Source of the DNA: Microbacterium sp. cx-55
Lineage (GTDB): Bacteria; Actinomycetota; Actinomycetes; Actinomycetales; Microbacteriaceae
NCBI RefSeq assembly: GCF_021117345.1
Contig: NZ_CP088261.1
Span: forward strand, 1,426,001-1,490,000
Direction of reading: 5' to 3'
DNA: 64,000 bases
The translations under genes were made by a program, and so were the position numbers. Below are positions 18,363 through 54,361 of the stretch, piece by piece. Below the pieces are notes generated by a model. The model did not search any database. It had not been told where the DNA came from and saw nothing but the letters and a program-made list of their open reading frames with translations. Numbering within the stretch: position 1 is the stretch's first letter; every line of letters begins with the position of its first letter.

Positions 18363-18965
18363 TCAGATCCAGCCGCGCTCCTGGGCGAGAACCGTCGCCT
18401 GCTGGCGTGAGGACACGGCGAGCTTGCCGAGTGCGGACGACACGTGGTTTCGGACGGTGCCGGGAGACAGATGCAGCGTGGCCGCGATCTGCGCGATCGT
18501 CTCGCCGCGTTTGCCCGCCCGCAGCACGTCCAGTTCGCGGTCGGTGAGCGGGCTCCGCTCGTCGGCGAGCGCGTCTGCCGCGATCTCCGGGTCGACGTAA
18601 CGGCGCCCCGCCGCGACTCGGCGGATGATGTCGGCCACCTCTTCGGCGCGGCGGGACTTCGGCACGAACCCCTCGACACCCGCCTGCAGAGCCCGGCGGA
18701 GGACGCCGGGCCGCGCGTGCCGCGTCACGACGATGCAGCGTGCCGCGCTTTTGCCGCGCAAGCGCTCCGCGACCTCGACGCCGTCGAGGCCCGGCATCTC
18801 GAGATCGAGCAGGCAGATGTCGGGGGACAGCCGCAGCGCCTCGGCGACTGCGTCGGTTCCGGTGCGGCATTCGGCGACGATCTCCAGATCGTCCTCGAGT
18901 CGCAGCAGCGAGGCGAGAGCCGTCCGGATCATGTCTTCGTCATCGGCGATGAGCACGCGGATCAT
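18363..18965 (-). CDS. LuxR/NarL-family response regulator (DesR-like)
   Basis: A 200-aa response regulator. The receiver domain has the acidic pair ADDED, the phosphoacceptor D54 in LLDLEMPGLDG and a conserved Lys (FVPKSRRAEEV). The C-terminal LuxR HTH (about 135-195) contains LTDRELDVLRAGKRGETIAQ and HLSPGTVRNHVSSALGKL. It overlaps the 3' end of the sensor kinase gene by 4 nt, forming a classic two-component operon. This arrangement and size match DesKR/LiaRS-like systems that sense membrane or envelope state. The target genes are unknown; the divergent export protein upstream of the pair is one candidate. Confidence 0.93.
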   Translation of the reverse strand: MIRVLIADDEDMIRTALASLLRLEDDLEIVAECRTGTDAVAEALRLSPDICLLDLEMPGLDGVEVAERLRGKSAARCIVVTRHARPGVLRRALQAGVEGFVPKSRRAEEVADIIRRVAAGRRYVDPEIAADALADERSPLTDRELDVLRAGKRGETIAQIAATLHLSPGTVRNHVSSALGKLAVSSRQQATVLAQERGWI

Positions 18966-20194
18966 GTCGGATCCCGTTCGGTCGGAGCCGCCGGGAGCGA
19001 CACCGTCAGCTCGAAGGTGTTGGCGGACCGTCCGACGCGGATGTCGCCGCCGACGGCGTTCGCGCGTTCGGTCATCCCGGCCAGTCCCGACCCGTCACCG
19101 GTCTCGTCCTCCCCGGTCTCGTCGTTCGCGATCCGGTACACCCACTGCGCGGCGTCGCGCTCCAGCGACAGGCGGGCCCAGCGTCCGCTCCCGTGCTTGA
19201 GCACGTTCGTGACGCTCTCGCGAACGATCGGTCCGAGCACGTCGGCGGGCGCGTCGACGGCGGCCGCATCGACCTCGGCGTGCACATCGACGCCCGCGGA
19301 TCGCAGCAGGTCGACGGCGTTCGCGAGTTCGTCCGGCAGGGGCACTCCGCGGAACGCGGCGGCGAGATCTCGCGTGCCCTGCCGGGCCGCATCCACCGCC
19401 GCCTGCGCGCGAGTGATCTCGGCCGCGGCCGCTTCGGGGTCGCGATCGATGAGCCGCTGGGCGAGTTCGAGCTGCAGGGCGATGACCTGCAGGTGGTGGC
19501 CCTGCAGATCGTGCACGTCATTCGCCAGCCGGAGACGCTCTCTCGTTGCCGCGAGGAGGCTCTCGGCCTGCCGCGCCCGATCGAGTTCCAGAACGATGTC
19601 CCACCACCACAGCGACGATGCGGCGATCACCGGCAGCATCGTGGCGAACAGCGCCGGCACGAAGAATCCGTTGGGCTCGACGTGAGAAAGATCCGACCAG
19701 GATGCCTCGGCCACCCAGACCGCGACGAGGGCGACGGTCACCGCGAGAATCACACGCCACCGGATGCCCGGCAGCCACGGACGCACGCTGAGGGCGTAGG
19801 CGAAGATGCTGGCCCCCGCCATCCACGACCCCGCCGCGAGACCGAGGAGCACTCCTCCCATCACCACGCCCACGAGGGCGATGGCGTCCGGGCGGGGGAG
19901 CCGGCCACGCTCCTCGTCGCCCCCGGCCAGCACGACCGGACGGTACCCGCGGAGGAGGAAGACGACACCGGCGTGCACGACGATCAGGGAGATACCCGCG
20001 AGCGCGAGCCGCCAACTGAGCCCCGCGCCCTCATCGTGGCGCACCAGGATCCAGACGAGCCACTGCAGCGTCGCCACGACACCGAAGAACACAATGCCCC
20101 CGACCGTGTACCACCAGGTCGCGGTCACGCTGCGCGCCAGTGCGCGCTCCCCGATACGCGGGGCGTCGCTGCGCGCCGGGATCGGTGAGGTCAT
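18962..20194 (-). CDS. DesK-like sensor histidine kinase
   Basis: A 410-aa membrane kinase. The N-terminal half holds about six TM segments (for example WWYTVGGIVFFGVVATLQWL and GVVMGGVLLGLAAGSWMAGA). HisKA_3 has NDVHDLQGHHLQVI with phosphoacceptor H228, and the HATPase domain has VRESVTNVLKHG (N box) and GSGLAGMTERANAVGGDI (G box). ATG 20194 is favoured over a GTG at 20260 because TACCGT (complement of 20201-20206) lies exactly 6 nt upstream, the leaderless spacing seen across this window. It forms an operon with the response regulator through a 4-nt overlap. Confidence 0.93.
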   Translation of the reverse strand: MTSPIPARSDAPRIGERALARSVTATWWYTVGGIVFFGVVATLQWLVWILVRHDEGAGLSWRLALAGISLIVVHAGVVFLLRGYRPVVLAGGDEERGRLPRPDAIALVGVVMGGVLLGLAAGSWMAGASIFAYALSVRPWLPGIRWRVILAVTVALVAVWVAEASWSDLSHVEPNGFFVPALFATMLPVIAASSLWWWDIVLELDRARQAESLLAATRERLRLANDVHDLQGHHLQVIALQLELAQRLIDRDPEAAAAEITRAQAAVDAARQGTRDLAAAFRGVPLPDELANAVDLLRSAGVDVHAEVDAAAVDAPADVLGPIVRESVTNVLKHGSGRWARLSLERDAAQWVYRIANDETGEDETGDGSGLAGMTERANAVGGDIRVGRSANTFELTVSLPAAPTERDPT

Positions 20195-20343
20195 GACACC
20201 ACGGTAGGACAGCGAGCGTGGCCGGGTCGTGCGCGCGGGACGGGTCGTGACATTCGTCACGGGTCGGATGCTGCATCCTCACGGCTCGTCGTGACACCGC
20301 AACACTGCCGAGAACCGGGCGCCGCCGATGAGATGGAACCACT

Positions 20344-47088: not shown

Positions 47089-47652
47089 GTGCCCGATGAA
47101 CGACGTTCCTGTGCCATCGCGGACGGATGCGGCGGCCCCGTGCCCGCAGCGTCCCCGCTGCCGCTCTGCGAACTCCACCTCGCCCTCGCCGCGGAGGCGT
47201 CCGTCGACGTGCACGGCGAGACCGATCTGCTCCCCGCACCGTGCCGTCGATGCGGATCGCCGCTGGGTGCGCGGTTCCGGTCGGGATGGATCTGTGCGGT
47301 CTGCGACTGGCACCACGGCGAGGTCGTCGACGGCGAGCTTCCGGCGCCGAGACTCGACATCGTCTACTACCTCGGGTTCCGCGACCGGGTGAAGATCGGA
47401 ACGACGGTGAATCCGCGTCAGCGATTCGCGGCCATCCGCCACGATCGGGTGCTCGCGTTCGAGCGTGGCGACCGGATGCGGGAGCACCTGCGACACGCCC
47501 AGTTCGCCGAGGAGCGGCTCGGGCGGAGCGAGTGGTTCGTCCGCAGTTCTGCGCTCGACGCCCACATCGACACGCTTCGCGGCGACGTGAACCCCTGGAC
47601 GCGATACGCCCAGTGGCAGAGCGCTGCTCTCGCGGTCGGGTTCATCGGATGA
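47089..47652 (+). CDS. GIY-YIG nuclease-family protein with zinc ribbon
   Basis: A 187-aa protein. A four-cysteine zinc ribbon, C52-x2-C55 and C69-x2-C72 (PCRRCGSPLG and WICAVCDW), precedes a GIY-YIG domain of the T5orf172/MUG113-like kind. That domain starts IVYYLGFRDRVKIGTTVNPR, then QRFAAIRHDRVLAFERGDRM, with E117-type and RSEWF motifs following. The first Y-Y, the Arg and the Glu expected for nuclease activity are present. The physiological target is unknown. GTG 47089 follows TACCGT (47077-47082) by 6 nt, consistent with a leaderless start. Confidence 0.88.
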   Translation: MPDERRSCAIADGCGGPVPAASPLPLCELHLALAAEASVDVHGETDLLPAPCRRCGSPLGARFRSGWICAVCDWHHGEVVDGELPAPRLDIVYYLGFRDRVKIGTTVNPRQRFAAIRHDRVLAFERGDRMREHLRHAQFAEERLGRSEWFVRSSALDAHIDTLRGDVNPWTRYAQWQSAALAVGFIG

Positions 47653-47750: not shown

Positions 47751-49532
47751 ATGAGCCACGAAGAGACCGCGGGAGTCCCCGTCGCGGATCGTGTCGTCGA
47801 CTCCTCCGGGCTGCGTCGAAGGATTCGGCAGGCGGCCGCATCCTTCGAACTTCCCCCCTTCCTCGAGAACGGCCGGGGCCGGACGACGGCCCTGCTGCAG
47901 CTCGCGCTCTGCGCGGTGGTCATCGTTCTCGTCGTCGTGGTCGTCTTCGTGCCCCTCAGCGGTGACGTGAGCCTGTTCTGGCTCGGCGCGATCATCGTGC
48001 TCGCCGCGGGAGGGGCGGCGGTACTGGTTCCGTGGGCCGTGCTTTCGCCCTGGTGGATCATCGCGATCCCGCTCATCGACATCGTCGGCATTCTGCTGCT
48101 GCGGCAGGCGCAGCCGTCGGCAGGGTTCGACGCGCTCTTCTTGGTTCCGATCGTCTGGCTGTCGATCTTCTACGGCCTGTTCGGCTACTTGATCGGCGTC
48201 GTCGCCGTGCCCCTCACAGTGCTGACGACCGTCCTGATCGATGGAACACAACCCTTCACCTACACGATCATCGTTCTGCCGGCCGTGGCGTTCGTGCTGG
48301 CGTCGATCAGCCTCCTGCTCTCGCGGCAGATGACCGCGCAGCGGGTGCTGTTCTCCCGGCAGACGGGCACGATGGCGCGGACCCTCCGGCGTGCGCAGAA
48401 ACAAGAAGAGCTCCTGGCGGAGGTTCTCGACACGATCGATTTCGGCGTCATCCGCATCGCCGTCGACGGATCGACCACGGTCGCGAACGAAGCGCACGCC
48501 CGCCTGCAGCGCGCTGCGCGCTCCGCGGCGTCCGGTCTCGACGAGCGTGGTGCGTCGTACGGCGCGGATGGCGTCACACCGCTCGACCGGGCCGACATCC
48601 CGTTCGCTCGTGCCGCACGCGGTGAAGTGTTCGACAACCAGATCGTGTGGTTCGGCGGGGAGGGCTCCCGGCGTCGTGCGTTGAGCGTCACCGCACGCAG
48701 GACGCGCGCGGTCGACGGTGCCGACAGCGGAGCCGTGATCGTGTCGCGCGATGTCACGAGTGAACTGACCGCCCTCCGCGCCCGCGATTCGCTGGTCTCC
48801 TCGGTTTCGCACGAGCTCCGCACCCCGCTCACGTCGATCATCGGCTACCTCGAGCTCGCGGTCGACGATCCGAACGTGCCCGCGCGCGCCCGGAAGAACC
48901 TCGAGATCGCGGAGCGGAACGCCGCACGACTGCTCGGCATCGTGTCCGACATCCTGACGGCGTCGAGCCGCTCGGAGATGTCGGCCGACCTGACCATCTC
49001 GCAGCAGGACATCGATGTCGCCGAGGTGCTCCGCGCGAGCGGTGAGGCCTGGGAGCCGACCGCGGCCGAGCGCGCGATCGAGATCGACATGGACGGGATC
49101 CGTCCTGCGCCGGCGTACGCGGATCCGCTGCGGATGCGGCAGGTGATCGACAATCTGATCAGCAACGCCGTGAAGTACAACCGCGACGGCGGCTACGTCG
49201 CTCTCGCGGTGCACTCGGATGGTCTTGCCACGAGCATCACCGTCACCGACAGCGGAATCGGTCTGAGCAGCGACGAGCTCCATCGCGTCTTCGAGCGCTT
49301 CTTCCGCGCCGGCGACGACGAGGCGACCGGAACAGGTCTCGGTCTCTCGATCAGTCGGGAGATCGTGCGCGCCCACGGCGGCGAAGTCACGGTCACGAGC
49401 GCCGTGGGTGTGGGATCCACCTTCACCGTGATCCTGCCGGCGACCGCGGACAGCCTCGACGACCCCGATGGTGAGGCGCGGACCGTCTCGTTGGACGAGA
49501 GTACCGGGCCGGGGAACGGGGCTCGCCGATGA
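47751..49532 (+). CDS. Membrane PAS sensor histidine kinase, module copy 1
   Basis: A 593-aa kinase. About six TM segments span residues 47-190 (LLQLALCAVVIVLVVVVVFV, LGAIIVLAAGGAAVLVPWAV, IIAIPLIDIVGILLLRQ); a coiled linker (LRRAQKQEELLAEVLD) leads to a PAS domain (LDTIDFGVIRIAVDGSTTVA, RGEVFDNQIVWFGG). HisKA has VSSVSHELRTPLTSIIGYLE with H354, and HATPase has LRMRQVIDNLISNAVKYN and GTGLGLSISREIVRAHGG. No response regulator is adjacent; its stop overlaps the start of a seven-TM protein by 4 nt. ATG 47751 follows TAACGT (47739-47744) by 6 nt. A paralogue lies at 50786-52531. Confidence 0.93.
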   Translation: MSHEETAGVPVADRVVDSSGLRRRIRQAAASFELPPFLENGRGRTTALLQLALCAVVIVLVVVVVFVPLSGDVSLFWLGAIIVLAAGGAAVLVPWAVLSPWWIIAIPLIDIVGILLLRQAQPSAGFDALFLVPIVWLSIFYGLFGYLIGVVAVPLTVLTTVLIDGTQPFTYTIIVLPAVAFVLASISLLLSRQMTAQRVLFSRQTGTMARTLRRAQKQEELLAEVLDTIDFGVIRIAVDGSTTVANEAHARLQRAARSAASGLDERGASYGADGVTPLDRADIPFARAARGEVFDNQIVWFGGEGSRRRALSVTARRTRAVDGADSGAVIVSRDVTSELTALRARDSLVSSVSHELRTPLTSIIGYLELAVDDPNVPARARKNLEIAERNAARLLGIVSDILTASSRSEMSADLTISQQDIDVAEVLRASGEAWEPTAAERAIEIDMDGIRPAPAYADPLRMRQVIDNLISNAVKYNRDGGYVALAVHSDGLATSITVTDSGIGLSSDELHRVFERFFRAGDDEATGTGLGLSISREIVRAHGGEVTVTSAVGVGSTFTVILPATADSLDDPDGEARTVSLDESTGPGNGARR

Positions 49533-50734
49533 TCCTCGACCCCGCAACGTCTGCGCTGATCGCCTCGGTGGTCGTGGCGAGCGCGGCGGTCACATTCATC
49601 GCGACGGCGCTCGCACCGCGCTTCGCGTCGACCGGGGCGCGGCTGTGGGGTTTGGCGCAGGTCATGGCGCTCGTCTCGGTGTTCTGCCACCTCGTCGCCG
49701 GCGCATCGGCGGTGGCCATCGAAGCGAACTGGGCGGTCGCACTCGGTAACGGCGCCGTCGTCGTGTCGATCGGATGCCTGCTCCTCGGCTTCCGCGCCTA
49801 CAGCGGCAACGAGGTGCAGGGCCCGGCGCTCATGGTCGTGGCGCTCGGGTTCCTCACCGTCGCCGCGTGCGCGATCGACGCCCCGGGACCGCGCGAGGGC
49901 GGCGGGGAGATCGTCACCTACCTCTCGATCACCGTGCTGTCGCTGGGCGCCGCCTGGCATGCCGTGGCGGGACGCACGCGGGAGTACGCGATGGCCTGGA
50001 TCTTCGCCGGATGCCTCGTGGTGTGGTCGCTCTTCTCGCTCATCCGCGTCGCCGTCGTCGTGTTCTGGGGGGCCGAGGTGCTTTACCAGCAGTGGTGGGG
50101 CGAGGTCGGCACGTCGCTGGTCCTGGTGAGCGTCGGAGTCGTGTCGACGATCGCGATCTTCGTGCTGCGGGCCACGCTCGCGGGGGAGTCCGTCGTGCGC
50201 GCGAAGACGGCGGCATCCGATGACGTCCTCGCGCCCCAGGCGTTCGTCGAGTCCCTTCGCGGCGTGCTGCACCGCGCCAGCGCCCGCACCGAGCTCGTGG
50301 TCGTCATCGCGGTGCTCGTCGAGGATGTCGGGGCGATCACGGCGTCGTTCGGTCGGGACGTGGCGGATGCGGCGACGCGGATCCTGCGTTCGGCGGTCCG
50401 CGCGTACGCGTCGCCGGTCGCGATCGTCGGAGAGGGGACCGATCCGAACATCGTGCTGGTCGCCACGACGGCGACGAGTCCCGCGGATGCGCGCCGTCAG
50501 GCGGGGCTGCTCTATCGCGGCGTGGTGCAGAGCTACGTCGGACAATCGCGCATCGTCGTTCCGGGAGTCGGTGTGGGCGTCGCGCTCAGTCAGACGCTCG
50601 GGTACGCCGCGGAGACGCTGGAAGAGGGCGCCACGATCGCGGCGGTCCTCGCGTCCGAGAGCGATGAAACGTCCGTCGTATTCGCCACCGTGCACAGCCT
50701 GCCGGAGGACCCGTTCCCGGCCGATCGGGTGTGA
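49529..50734 (+). CDS. Seven-TM protein with degenerate GGDEF-like C-terminus, module copy 1
   Basis: A 401-aa protein with seven predicted TM helices (about 9-29, 39-59, 68-88, 98-115, 126-146, 153-178, 191-213). The cytosolic C-terminus (about 235-380) has the order and spacing of a GGDEF fold: LVVVIAVLVEDVGAITASFG, DVADAATRILRSAVRAYASP, then VAIVGEGTDPNIVLVATTA where the GGDEF loop should lie, SPADARRQAGLLYRGVVQ, and VVPGVGVGVALSQTLGYAAE. The signature loop is replaced, so diguanylate cyclase activity is unlikely. ATG 49529 overlaps the kinase stop (ATGA). It may relay or gate the kinase signal (inference). The GGDEF relation is my reading by pattern, not by alignment. Confidence 0.75.
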   Translation: MILDPATSALIASVVVASAAVTFIATALAPRFASTGARLWGLAQVMALVSVFCHLVAGASAVAIEANWAVALGNGAVVVSIGCLLLGFRAYSGNEVQGPALMVVALGFLTVAACAIDAPGPREGGGEIVTYLSITVLSLGAAWHAVAGRTREYAMAWIFAGCLVVWSLFSLIRVAVVVFWGAEVLYQQWWGEVGTSLVLVSVGVVSTIAIFVLRATLAGESVVRAKTAASDDVLAPQAFVESLRGVLHRASARTELVVVIAVLVEDVGAITASFGRDVADAATRILRSAVRAYASPVAIVGEGTDPNIVLVATTATSPADARRQAGLLYRGVVQSYVGQSRIVVPGVGVGVALSQTLGYAAETLEEGATIAAVLASESDETSVVFATVHSLPEDPFPADRV

Positions 50735-50785
50735 CGGTGCGCACGCGCGCCATCCCGCACGCGCCGACGCGATAGCGTGCACGGT

Positions 50786-52531
50786 ATGGCACGGCGCGAC
50801 GGAGAGACGGGGCCGGTGCTGACGCGCCTCCGGGCGGCGTTCCGTTCTTCTCTCCTCGGCGAGCGGCACTCGCGGTCCGCAGCCGTGCGCGGCCGATCCG
50901 CGGCGCTGAACCAGCTGCTCCTGTGCGCTGTCGTTCTGATCGTCAGCAGCCTGGCGTTGTTCATCGGCTCGCATCCGAACGGGACGCTCTTCCTCGCGGC
51001 CGTCCTGCTCGTGTTCGCCGGCGGTGCGGCCGCGCTCGTGGTGCCGTGGTCGCAGCTACCGCAGGGGTGTGTGATGGTCATCCCCGTCATCGACATCGTC
51101 GCGATTGGGCTGCTGCGGATGGCGGAGCCGGCCGGAGGTCTCGGGCTCCTGTGGGTCTTCCCCGCCATCTGGCTCGCGACGCTCGGCGCGGTCGGCTTCG
51201 CTTTGCAGTTCGTGCTGATCACGGTGTTGTACTGGGCGATCGTGGCCACCTCGCCGGGAACGACGACGACCGTGACCTATGCAGTGGTGCTGCTGCCCGT
51301 CGTGATCATGTCGGTGGCCACGACCGTGTTCGTCAGCAATCGCCGCTCGCAGGCGCAGCAGAGCCTCCTCGATCGCCAGGCCGTGCTCCTCTCGGGAGCG
51401 CTGCAGCGCGCACAACGACAAGAAGAGCTCATGACCGAGGTGCTGGACGCCGTCGATTTCGGCGTGCTCCGCATCGCGCCCGATGGCACCGTCGCCGTCG
51501 TGAACGAGGCGCTGGGTCGCTTCCAGAACGCGATCCCCGGTTTCGGCATCCAGGACCGCGAACTCGACAACGCCTACCGTCCCGACGGAACCACCCGGAT
51601 CCACCAGGACGAGCGGCCCCTCGTCCGCGCGATCCAGGGAGAGGTGTTCGATGACCAGGTGGTCTGGTTCGGACACCCCGACGAACGACGGACCGCGATG
51701 AGCATGACCGCGCGCCGGATGCGGGACGCCTACGGCGCCGATGCAGGCGCGGTCCTGATCGCGCGCGATGTGACGCGCGAACTGACGGCCCTGCGAGCGC
51801 GGGACCGCCTGGTCGCCTCGGTGTCGCACGAGTTGCGCACCCCGCTGACCTCCGTGCTGGGCTACATCGATCTGGCGCTCGACAACCTCGACCGGCCCGA
51901 GGCCGTGCGGAAAGACCTCGAGATCGCGGGGCGGAACGGCGAACGCCTGCTCGAGATCGTGGCCGATATCCTCGCGGCGTCGAGTTCGTCGCGGTTGTCG
52001 GTGGACATGCGGATCTCGCCGGAGGACGTGGATGTCGCCGACATCGTGCGCGCCTGCGCGGAAGCGTGGCGCCCGCGCGCGGCCGAGCGGGCGGTCACGA
52101 TCGTCACGGGCGATGTCGAGCCGGCCCGGGCGTTCGCCGACCCGCTGCGGCTGCGGCAGGTCGTCGACAACCTGGTGAGCAATGCCGTGAAGTACAACCG
52201 CGACGGCGGCGAAGCATCCATCGGCTGCGCGAGCGACGGCGAGTCGACGTGGATCGTCGTCCGCGACACGGGGCCGGGCATGACGCCCGTCGACCAGGAG
52301 CGTCTGTTCGAGCGATACTTCCGTGCCCGGAACGATGTCGAAGGCACCGGCCTCGGCCTGTCCATCAGCCGCGACATCGCTCGCGCGCACGGAGGCGACA
52401 TCACGGCGCGGAGCGAGCGCGGCGTGGGGTCCACGTTCATCGTGCGATTGCCGGCCACCTCGCGGGCGGCAGCGACCGCCGATGCGGCGGGGGACGAGCC
52501 CCGACGAGACGCCGGAGAGGCGCGCACGTGA
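50786..52531 (+). CDS. Membrane PAS sensor histidine kinase, module copy 2
   Basis: A 581-aa paralogue of the kinase at 47751-49532, with the same order: six TM segments, a linker (LQRAQRQEELMTEVLDAVDF), PAS (QGEVFDDQVVWFGHPDER), HisKA with H348 (VASVSHELRTPLTSVLGYID), then HATPase (LRQVVDNLVSNAVKYNRDGG and GTGLGLSISRDIARAHGGDI). The two are clearly homologous along the full length, most strongly from the PAS to the end. Start ATG 50786 lies 7 nt after TAGCGT (50773-50778); a GTG at 50777 would precede it by three codons. As in copy 1, the stop overlaps by 4 nt a seven-TM protein, and no response regulator is adjacent. Confidence 0.93.
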   Translation: MARRDGETGPVLTRLRAAFRSSLLGERHSRSAAVRGRSAALNQLLLCAVVLIVSSLALFIGSHPNGTLFLAAVLLVFAGGAAALVVPWSQLPQGCVMVIPVIDIVAIGLLRMAEPAGGLGLLWVFPAIWLATLGAVGFALQFVLITVLYWAIVATSPGTTTTVTYAVVLLPVVIMSVATTVFVSNRRSQAQQSLLDRQAVLLSGALQRAQRQEELMTEVLDAVDFGVLRIAPDGTVAVVNEALGRFQNAIPGFGIQDRELDNAYRPDGTTRIHQDERPLVRAIQGEVFDDQVVWFGHPDERRTAMSMTARRMRDAYGADAGAVLIARDVTRELTALRARDRLVASVSHELRTPLTSVLGYIDLALDNLDRPEAVRKDLEIAGRNGERLLEIVADILAASSSSRLSVDMRISPEDVDVADIVRACAEAWRPRAAERAVTIVTGDVEPARAFADPLRLRQVVDNLVSNAVKYNRDGGEASIGCASDGESTWIVVRDTGPGMTPVDQERLFERYFRARNDVEGTGLGLSISRDIARAHGGDITARSERGVGSTFIVRLPATSRAAATADAAGDEPRRDAGEART

Positions 52532-53715
52532 ACTTCGATCTGGCGACCGCGTCGCTCATGACGGCTTTCGTCGCGAACGTGGCGGGCGTGCTGTTCATCG
52601 TCGACACCCTCTTGCGCCGCGATGACGCCGCCGGGCGGATCTGGGCGATCGCGTTTCTCAGCGGGATGGCGACGACCGTCGCCTACGCGCTGTGGGCATC
52701 GGGTGCCGGTGGTGTCGTGGCCATCGCCATCGGCAACGCCCTGTTCGTCAACACCACGGGCTGTATGTGGCTCGGATCGCGGAAGTTCAACGAGCGCCGG
52801 ATGGGGCCCGCCGCGATCGTCGTGGTGTTGGCGGGCATCCTCGTCGCGGCTGCCGTTCTGGCCGAGGGGTCGAGCGGCGGGGACTGGGCGGGTTGGCTGG
52901 TCATGGGGCTCTCGCTCGTCGGGTTCGCGGCTCTCGCGGCCGTCGAGACCACGCGATACCCGATGGGCAGGATCGGCACGGCCCGTGTGCTGACCGCCGT
53001 CCTCGCCGTGGAATGCGTGTTCTACCTCGCCCGATCGATCGTCTTCGTCACCGCCGGGCCCGACAGCGACCTGTTCCAGGTCTGGTTCGGCTCGCTGATC
53101 GCGAACTTCGTCACGATCGGGCTGACGATCGTCGCGGTGGCGGTGTTGTCGGTGCTGCGCGCGGGTCGGGCCGAACTCCGCGGATACTCCTGGATGACAC
53201 GCGTCGGCTCCAGCTCGGACGGCATCCTGCTCGGATCCACCATCACGACGGCGCTCGAGGACGTCGTGGAGCGGGCGGGCTGGCGGGGCGACCTGATCGC
53301 GCTCATCGCCGTCAGAGTGGAGGGGATCGCGCAGATCCGCACGGCATTCGGCGCCGATGTCGCCGGCGACGTGACGCACGCGTGGCGACAGGGGGTACGC
53401 CGCTTCGCGCCGTCCGCGTCGCTCGTCGGCGAAGACGGCGAGTACACGCTGCTCGTCATCGCGCCCGCCTCGACGGCCGCCGACGCTCGCCGTCAGGCCG
53501 GCACGATCTACCGCGGGCTGTTCGAGGCGTTCGGCCGGGTGTCGGATGCCGTCATCCCCGCGGTCGGCGTCGGGGTCGGCCTCACCGAGACGGTCGGCTA
53601 CGACCCGAAGGCTTTGCTCTGGGCGGCCCGTGAGGCATCCGAGATCGCCGCGACGAGCATCGAGTCGTCGGTGCTCTTTGGCGGCGCCTCGACGATCGGC
53701 GAACGCGGAGACTGA
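52528..53715 (+). CDS. Seven-TM protein with degenerate GGDEF-like C-terminus, module copy 2
   Basis: A 395-aa paralogue of the protein at 49529-50734. Seven TM helices again (for example LMTAFVANVAGVLFIVDTLL, VVAIAIGNALFVNTTGCMWL, IANFVTIGLTIVAVAVLSVL). The C-terminus shares DLIALIAVRVEGIAQIRTAF, ASLVGEDGEYTLLVIAPAS (in place of a GGDEF loop), ADARRQAGTIYRGLFEAFG and VIPAVGVGVGLTETVGYDPK. The most conserved words between copies are VGE, ADARRQAG-x-YRG and VGVGV-x-L-x-T-x-GY. GTG 52528 overlaps the kinase stop by 4 nt (GTGA). Function is unknown. Confidence 0.75.
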   Translation: MNFDLATASLMTAFVANVAGVLFIVDTLLRRDDAAGRIWAIAFLSGMATTVAYALWASGAGGVVAIAIGNALFVNTTGCMWLGSRKFNERRMGPAAIVVVLAGILVAAAVLAEGSSGGDWAGWLVMGLSLVGFAALAAVETTRYPMGRIGTARVLTAVLAVECVFYLARSIVFVTAGPDSDLFQVWFGSLIANFVTIGLTIVAVAVLSVLRAGRAELRGYSWMTRVGSSSDGILLGSTITTALEDVVERAGWRGDLIALIAVRVEGIAQIRTAFGADVAGDVTHAWRQGVRRFAPSASLVGEDGEYTLLVIAPASTAADARRQAGTIYRGLFEAFGRVSDAVIPAVGVGVGLTETVGYDPKALLWAAREASEIAATSIESSVLFGGASTIGERGD

Positions 53716-53764
53716 GTCCCGCGCCGGGATCGGTGCGGCGCCCCGCGCGTGGCATGCTCGTGGA

Positions 53765-54361
53765 ATGCCGCTCATCGCTCTCACCGGGGGCATCGCCTCG
53801 GGAAAGTCCACCGTTGCGCGCCGACTCGCCGAGCACGGTGCGGTGATCGTCGACGCCGACGCGCTCGTGCGCGATGTGCAGGCGCCGGGTTCGCCGGTGC
53901 TTGCGGCGATCGCCGCCGAGTTCGGGACAGAGCTCCTCGGCGCGGACGGCGCTCTCGACCGCGCGGCGCTCGGCGCGATCATCTTCTCCGACGACGAGGC
54001 GCGGCACCGCCTGAACGCCATCGTGCATCCGGCGGTGCGCGCCGCATCCGCCGATCGATTCGCACAGGCCTTCGCCGCGGATGCGGACGCGGTGGTCGTC
54101 TACGACGTTCCGCTGCTCGTGGAGGCGCGGGTCGATGACCCGTGGGAACTCATCGTCGTTGCCCACGCTCCGTCGGCGGTTCGGCTCGAACGCCTGGTGA
54201 CGCTGCGCGGTCTGACGCGCGCCGAGGCCGAGAAGCGGATCGCCGCGCAGGTGGACGACGATGCCCGCCTCGCGGTCGCAGACGTGGTCATCGACACGGC
54301 CGGGTCGCTCGCGGAGACCCACGCGCAGGCCGACGCGCTCTGGGAGCGCCTGCGCGCCTGA
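53765..54361 (+). CDS. coaE: Dephospho-CoA kinase
   Basis: A 198-aa kinase for the last step of coenzyme A synthesis, phosphorylating dephospho-CoA at the 3'-OH. The P-loop is GGIASGKST (8-16, K14); [16 protein letters not shown] is the substrate-binding region and [20 protein letters not shown] the lid and Arg-rich segment. A 198-aa form is normal; it lacks the C-terminal GrpB-like fusion of mycobacteria. ATG 53765 lies 6 nt after CATGCT (53753-53758), a weaker leaderless -10 box. It sits 59 nt upstream of uvrB, the usual actinobacterial neighbour. Confidence 0.95.

Follow-up and report, generated by a model that had tools for sequence, protein, structure and literature searches.

The genome of Microbacterium sp. 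cx-55 carries, in the 64-kb window that we analysed (contig NZ_CP088261.1, positions 1,426,001 to 1,490,000 of a 3.27-Mb single-contig genome), two head-to-tail copies of a gene pair encoding a membrane histidine kinase (HK) and a seven-transmembrane (7TM) protein with a degenerate GGDEF-like C terminus (M). This HK–M module probably helps to control the outer sugar coat of the cell, because relatives keep the pair, often beside a response regulator and sugar-polymer genes. The reading towards which we lean is that HK and M act as one membrane sensor of a three-component system, which would control a surface β-glycan locus through an OmpR-type regulator, and that the pair in the window has been duplicated and is missing its own regulator.

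A duplicated kinase–7TM gene pair

The two pairs lie between rpsA and coaE–uvrB–uvrA, with the following features (window coordinates).

47751..49532, + strand: HK1, membrane histidine kinase, 593 amino acids, H354; HisKA and HATPase_c, PAS_4 below cut-off
49529..50734, + strand: M1, 7TM protein with degenerate GGDEF-like C terminus, 401 amino acids; the more diverged, extra copy
50786..52531, + strand: HK2, membrane histidine kinase with PAS_4, 581 amino acids from ATG, H348
52528..53715, + strand: M2, 7TM protein with degenerate GGDEF C terminus, 395 amino acids; the copy common to most relatives
52528..53190, + strand: M2 residues 1–221, 7TM domain, which elsewhere precedes SpoIIE and canonical GGDEF outputs
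53194..53712, + strand: M2 residues 223–395, predicted GGDEF-fold domain; GG(D/E)EF, RxxD, the metal Asp and the Asn that binds guanine are all absent
53716..53765, no strand: 50-bp gap between M2 and coaE with no response regulator; a convergent regulator follows M in 64/82 loci of the genus

The tandem-duplicated two-gene module described in the original prediction, which was made from the sequence of this stretch alone, is real: in both pairs the M start overlaps the kinase stop (ATGA at 49529 for HK1/M1, GTGA at 52528 for HK2/M2), and the histidines are H354 and H348 as proposed. An alternative GTG start of HK2 is possible at 50777, with which its histidine would be H351. The two copies share 46% identity (HK) and 32% identity (M). 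HK2–M2 is closer than HK1–M1 to the nearest single-copy relatives (about 52% versus about 35% for M, 53% versus 49% for HK) and is thus the pair that most relatives share. Both kinases have HisKA, with its His, and HATPase_c over the Pfam cut-offs, as expected of histidine kinases. The description as PAS kinases holds for HK2 (PAS_4, 28.9 bits) and falls short for HK1, which scores 15.2 against a cut-off of 23.1. A 187-amino-acid gene between rpsA and HK1 (window 47089–47652), found in the same place in many relatives, matches no Pfam family at E 0.001.

Conservation of the pair

We searched M1 in 149 genomes of the genus and obtained matches in 85. The genus loci that we read number 82, from 81 genomes: the window, 80 of the 84 other carriers (G044, G054, G056 and G069 were left out) and L003, at the same place as in G111. 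In all 82, HK immediately precedes M on the same strand, and the genes overlap by 4 or 1 bases in 79/87 pairs (starts chosen automatically; the 8 exceptions include broken kinase genes), so the arrangement is not due to chance. The search of relatives that had been proposed as a check therefore found the pair linked throughout these loci, and it recurs in 29 HK-holding loci of other genera. Two pairs are carried by 5 of the 81 genomes (window, L034, L035, L036 and L046). Evolutionary distances correlate between HK and M (r = 0.93, partial 0.90, n = 63) and between HK and the regulator (r = 0.83, partial 0.80, n = 54), which, for linked genes of related genomes, would fit HK, M and regulator as a working unit.

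The response regulator

With a receiver profile built from the cx-55 genome, we found a regulator past the end of M, on the opposite strand, in 64/82 loci of the genus, at 34 to 550 bases, and, at up to about 4 kb, in 20/29 loci with HK from other genera; the earlier suggestion that the membrane protein fills the regulator slot is therefore not simply so. In the window no response regulator lies beside HK–M. The original prediction had named unlinked genes, with an obvious cognate regulator beside the kinase in other genomes, as what would count against it, and this is borne out in part: relatives do have a candidate cognate regulator near the kinase, HK and M are not unlinked, and the slot in the window is empty. 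The window has one receiver match elsewhere, a LuxR/NarL-type regulator (18363–20260) that adjoins its own HisKA_3 kinase and was rejected as the HK–M partner. In L083, two convergent response regulators lie downstream of a single M gene.

Among 23 receiver matches in the cx-55 genome, L230 is the best for 84/86 linked regulators, whereas the regulator of L045 matches L214 best and the more distant of the two in L194 matches L229 best. L230 lies at about 501.6 kb, about 0.97 Mb from HK–M, between a family-2 glycosyltransferase (GT2) gene and a GH6 hydrolase gene, near two likely lipoprotein genes and one DUF4012 gene; the 19.5 kb around it hold no kinase-profile match. A glycosyltransferase is present in 16/17 genomes without an M-locus regulator versus 35/64 with one. 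The window lineage therefore seems to have lost its M-locus regulator, leaving the glycan-locus regulator as the likely partner.

Linkage to a glycan locus

Outside the genus, 9 of the 29 loci with HK combine all five genes (HK, M, glycosyltransferase, regulator and GH6) in one stretch, L206 with split HK and M frames. The fetched sequence of L184, L189 and L202 ends before the full stretch could be read, and L191 has glycosyltransferase and regulator with no GH6 match in its remaining 3.4 kb. Across 299 genomes of the family (13 with only partial or weak M matches were dropped), full-length M occurs in 76, the glycosyltransferase in 42 and both in 36 (Fisher p 3e-19, uncorrected for ancestry); outside the genus the two lie within 5 kb in all 34 genomes that have both. 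Within the genus, M is found in 54/61 glycosyltransferase carriers versus 31/88 others (partial matches in G012 and G019 scored as absent). All seven Microbacterium glycan loci read contain a regulator, and four of them (L263–L266) a second, divergent HK–M pair; L267, L268 and the cx-55 locus, L237, have no HK–M pair. L265 and L266 carry, in addition to that pair, another divergent 7TM gene next to the glycosyltransferase.

A predicted GGDEF fold without its active site

Degenerate GGDEF domains are mostly explained as cyclic di-GMP (c-di-GMP) receptors or as accessories of EAL domains. YfiN is a cyclase; unlike it (YfiN/TpbB GGDEF, PDB 7a7e and 4iob), M lacks the signature. Neither M1 nor M2 scores above the cut-off of any Pfam family or matches an NCBIfam entry, in keeping with the proposal of a conserved domain without a family name. 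They do not reach the PF00990 (GGDEF) gathering score, which M orthologues in some Microbacterium genomes do (for example, 38.6 bits in G031); from other genera, L189 and L194 reach it, and L175 and L177 do not. The fold comparison that had been suggested agrees with the degenerate GGDEF-like C terminus first described: structure model and fold matches predict a GGDEF fold. VGEGTDPN and VGEDGEYT replace the signature loop, as originally noted, and the shared words ADARRQAGxxYRG and VGVGVxLxxTxGY are present, the latter one residue longer than first written.

M has other residues in place of the F and the acidic positions of the signature, of the metal Asp and of those that bind guanine. In the rows tabulated, GG(D/E)EF and metal Asp are lost in 52/52 M2-type and 4/4 M1-type sequences, the Microbacterium M2-type rows (52/52) have also lost the guanine-binding Asn and RxxD, and the RxxD of the c-di-GMP I-site is kept in 0/86 rows from HK-holding loci. 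In other genera, M sequences from loci with HK retain the guanine-contact Asn in 23/30 rows and the Asp of GD in 22/30; nucleotide-site residues thus fade between genera while the kinase linkage stays. The cx-55 genome has no match at E 0.001 to PF00990, PF00563 (EAL) or PF07238 (PilZ), searches that were positive in 8, 6 and 5 of 14 control genomes, respectively; the PF00990 search also misses M1 and M2, so strongly diverged domains can escape it. Of the 85 M-carrying genomes of the genus, 60 have no GGDEF over 60 bits, and M and strong GGDEF show no association there (Fisher p 0.12, kinship ignored).

Because the A-site and RxxD are gone and the genome is without a GGDEF, EAL or PilZ match, c-di-GMP synthesis or I-site sensing by M appears unlikely, and with it the c-di-GMP unit first envisaged; a phosphorelay through M finds no support, as Pfam matched no Hpt or receiver domain in M1 or M2. 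Alternatively, M might be a nucleotide receptor: GTP, (p)ppGpp or a cyclic dinucleotide would bind to what remains of its GGDEF domain, and M would signal the nucleotide state to the kinase. The residues kept in other genera would suit such a receptor, as would the solved PleD complexes with ppGpp/pppGpp among the fold matches of M, but the losses in every Microbacterium M2-type row and the scarcity of GGDEF matches in cx-55 and its M-carrying relatives make it an unlikely one.

Proposed mechanism

In the three-component system that we favour, M would perceive a signal at the envelope through its 7TM domain, and the dead GGDEF domain would persist as a scaffold that contacts the kinase and sets the balance between kinase and phosphatase activity. 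The kinase would phosphorylate an OmpR-type regulator whose gene would ancestrally have stood convergent to that of M; this regulator would in turn control a GT2/GH6/lipoprotein locus making a cell-surface β-glycan. In cx-55, where the regulator of the rpsA–coaE locus is missing, the duplicated pair would probably signal to the glycan-locus regulator near 501 kb.

Several observations weigh against this scheme. Among genus M carriers, 31/85 have no GT2 and 7/61 GT2 carriers have no M; in the family, 40/76 full-M genomes are without GT2 and 6/42 GT2 genomes without full M, and therefore M cannot serve the glycan locus only. None of the 82 genus M loci has a GT2 match, so the rpsA–coaE pair is not beside GT2. 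In 22 loci among L058–L113 the M-locus regulator is a receiver of about 125 residues, a length that leaves no room for a DNA-binding domain, which in the others is of the OmpR type. In a tree of 96 receivers (few columns, many weak forks), the seven Microbacterium glycan-locus regulators, that of cx-55 included, group (100/100) among those of other genera, on a different branch from the M-locus regulators. Degenerate 7TM-GGDEF genes also occur away from the HK–M kinase (7 rows), the correlations and Fisher tests rest on linked genes or related genomes with kinship uncorrected, and removal of the dead GGDEF of SgmT, the nearest analogue, changed no phenotype looked at (PMC3509222).

More tentatively, in genomes where no c-di-GMP enzymes can be detected, a diguanylate cyclase architecture may have found a new use: a 7TM receptor with a GPCR-like helix arrangement would gate a separate histidine kinase controlling a surface glycan, its dead GGDEF domain acting solely as a protein lever, so that the pseudo-cyclase would be the sensing subunit of a three-component system. 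M is kept in a genome that has no GGDEF, EAL or PilZ match, and it stands beside the kinase in every genus locus read. Whether a dead cyclase can act as the gating subunit of a kinase is directly testable in this case, which also gives a clue to the control of a cellulose-like coat in Microbacteriaceae.

HK and M could also be merely co-transcribed, the kinase signalling to the regulator alone and M doing a separate membrane job. The kinases do have membrane and PAS-like regions of their own and H, N and G boxes that are intact by sequence, but the start–stop overlaps, the joint duplication, the distance correlation and the divergent pair recurring in 4/7 Microbacterium glycan loci render this improbable. 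That M still works as a diguanylate cyclase through an atypical A-site is very hard to credit given its replaced signature, metal and guanine-binding residues, even though an enzyme with AGDEF instead of GGDEF is reported to make c-di-GMP (PMC3974145).

Relation to known systems

The nearest analogue found is SgmT/DigR of Myxococcus xanthus, in which an orphan histidine kinase with a degenerate-A-site GGDEF and an orphan DNA-binding regulator affect extracellular matrix composition (PMC3509222); kinase and degenerate GGDEF are common to both, as would be the regulator and an outer-matrix role. In SgmT the GGDEF module is part of a soluble hybrid kinase, has retained the RxxD I-site and binds c-di-GMP (PMC3509222), whereas M is a separate 7TM protein without an I-site, in a genome without a GGDEF, EAL or PilZ match. 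RgsP is likewise a 7TM receptor with a cytoplasmic GGDEF and has an envelope role, but it has PAS-GGDEF-EAL, a periplasmic domain and an active EAL (PMC6107284); M is only 7TM plus GGDEF remnant, paired with a kinase. The CslA-GlxA-CslZ system of Streptomyces places a cellulose synthase-like protein beside a GH6 lipoprotein and makes β-1,4-glycan (PMC9040799), a parallel to the GT2–GH6 locus, which has kinase, pseudo-cyclase and regulator in addition.

The 7TM domain and its other contexts

The seven transmembrane helices originally proposed are modelled in M2 (residues 1–221, pLDDT 93.6), and loop charges fit an N-outside, C-inside topology; simple hydropathy scanning picks out 6 segments in M2 and 8 in M1, where the eighth falls within the C-terminal domain. 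No Pfam family exceeded its cut-off for the 7TM part in the proteins scanned, and matches to 7TMR-DISM, HisKA_7TM and MASE were weak and scattered among the 55 members, with none common to more than 4. In microbial rhodopsins a helix-7 lysine holds retinal; M2 has no Lys in residues 189–218 (helix bounds from the model), and this identity was rejected.

In L207–L210 this 7TM domain is followed by a SpoIIE-type phosphatase (L207 and L210 by Pfam scan, L208 and L209 alike in the alignment), with no match to the HK–M kinase within the fetched 16 kb. In another family of the order, L270 (G450:C6:685000-692000), without a kinase match in the fetched 7 kb, contains three tandem 7TM genes with GG(D/E)EF cyclase domains.
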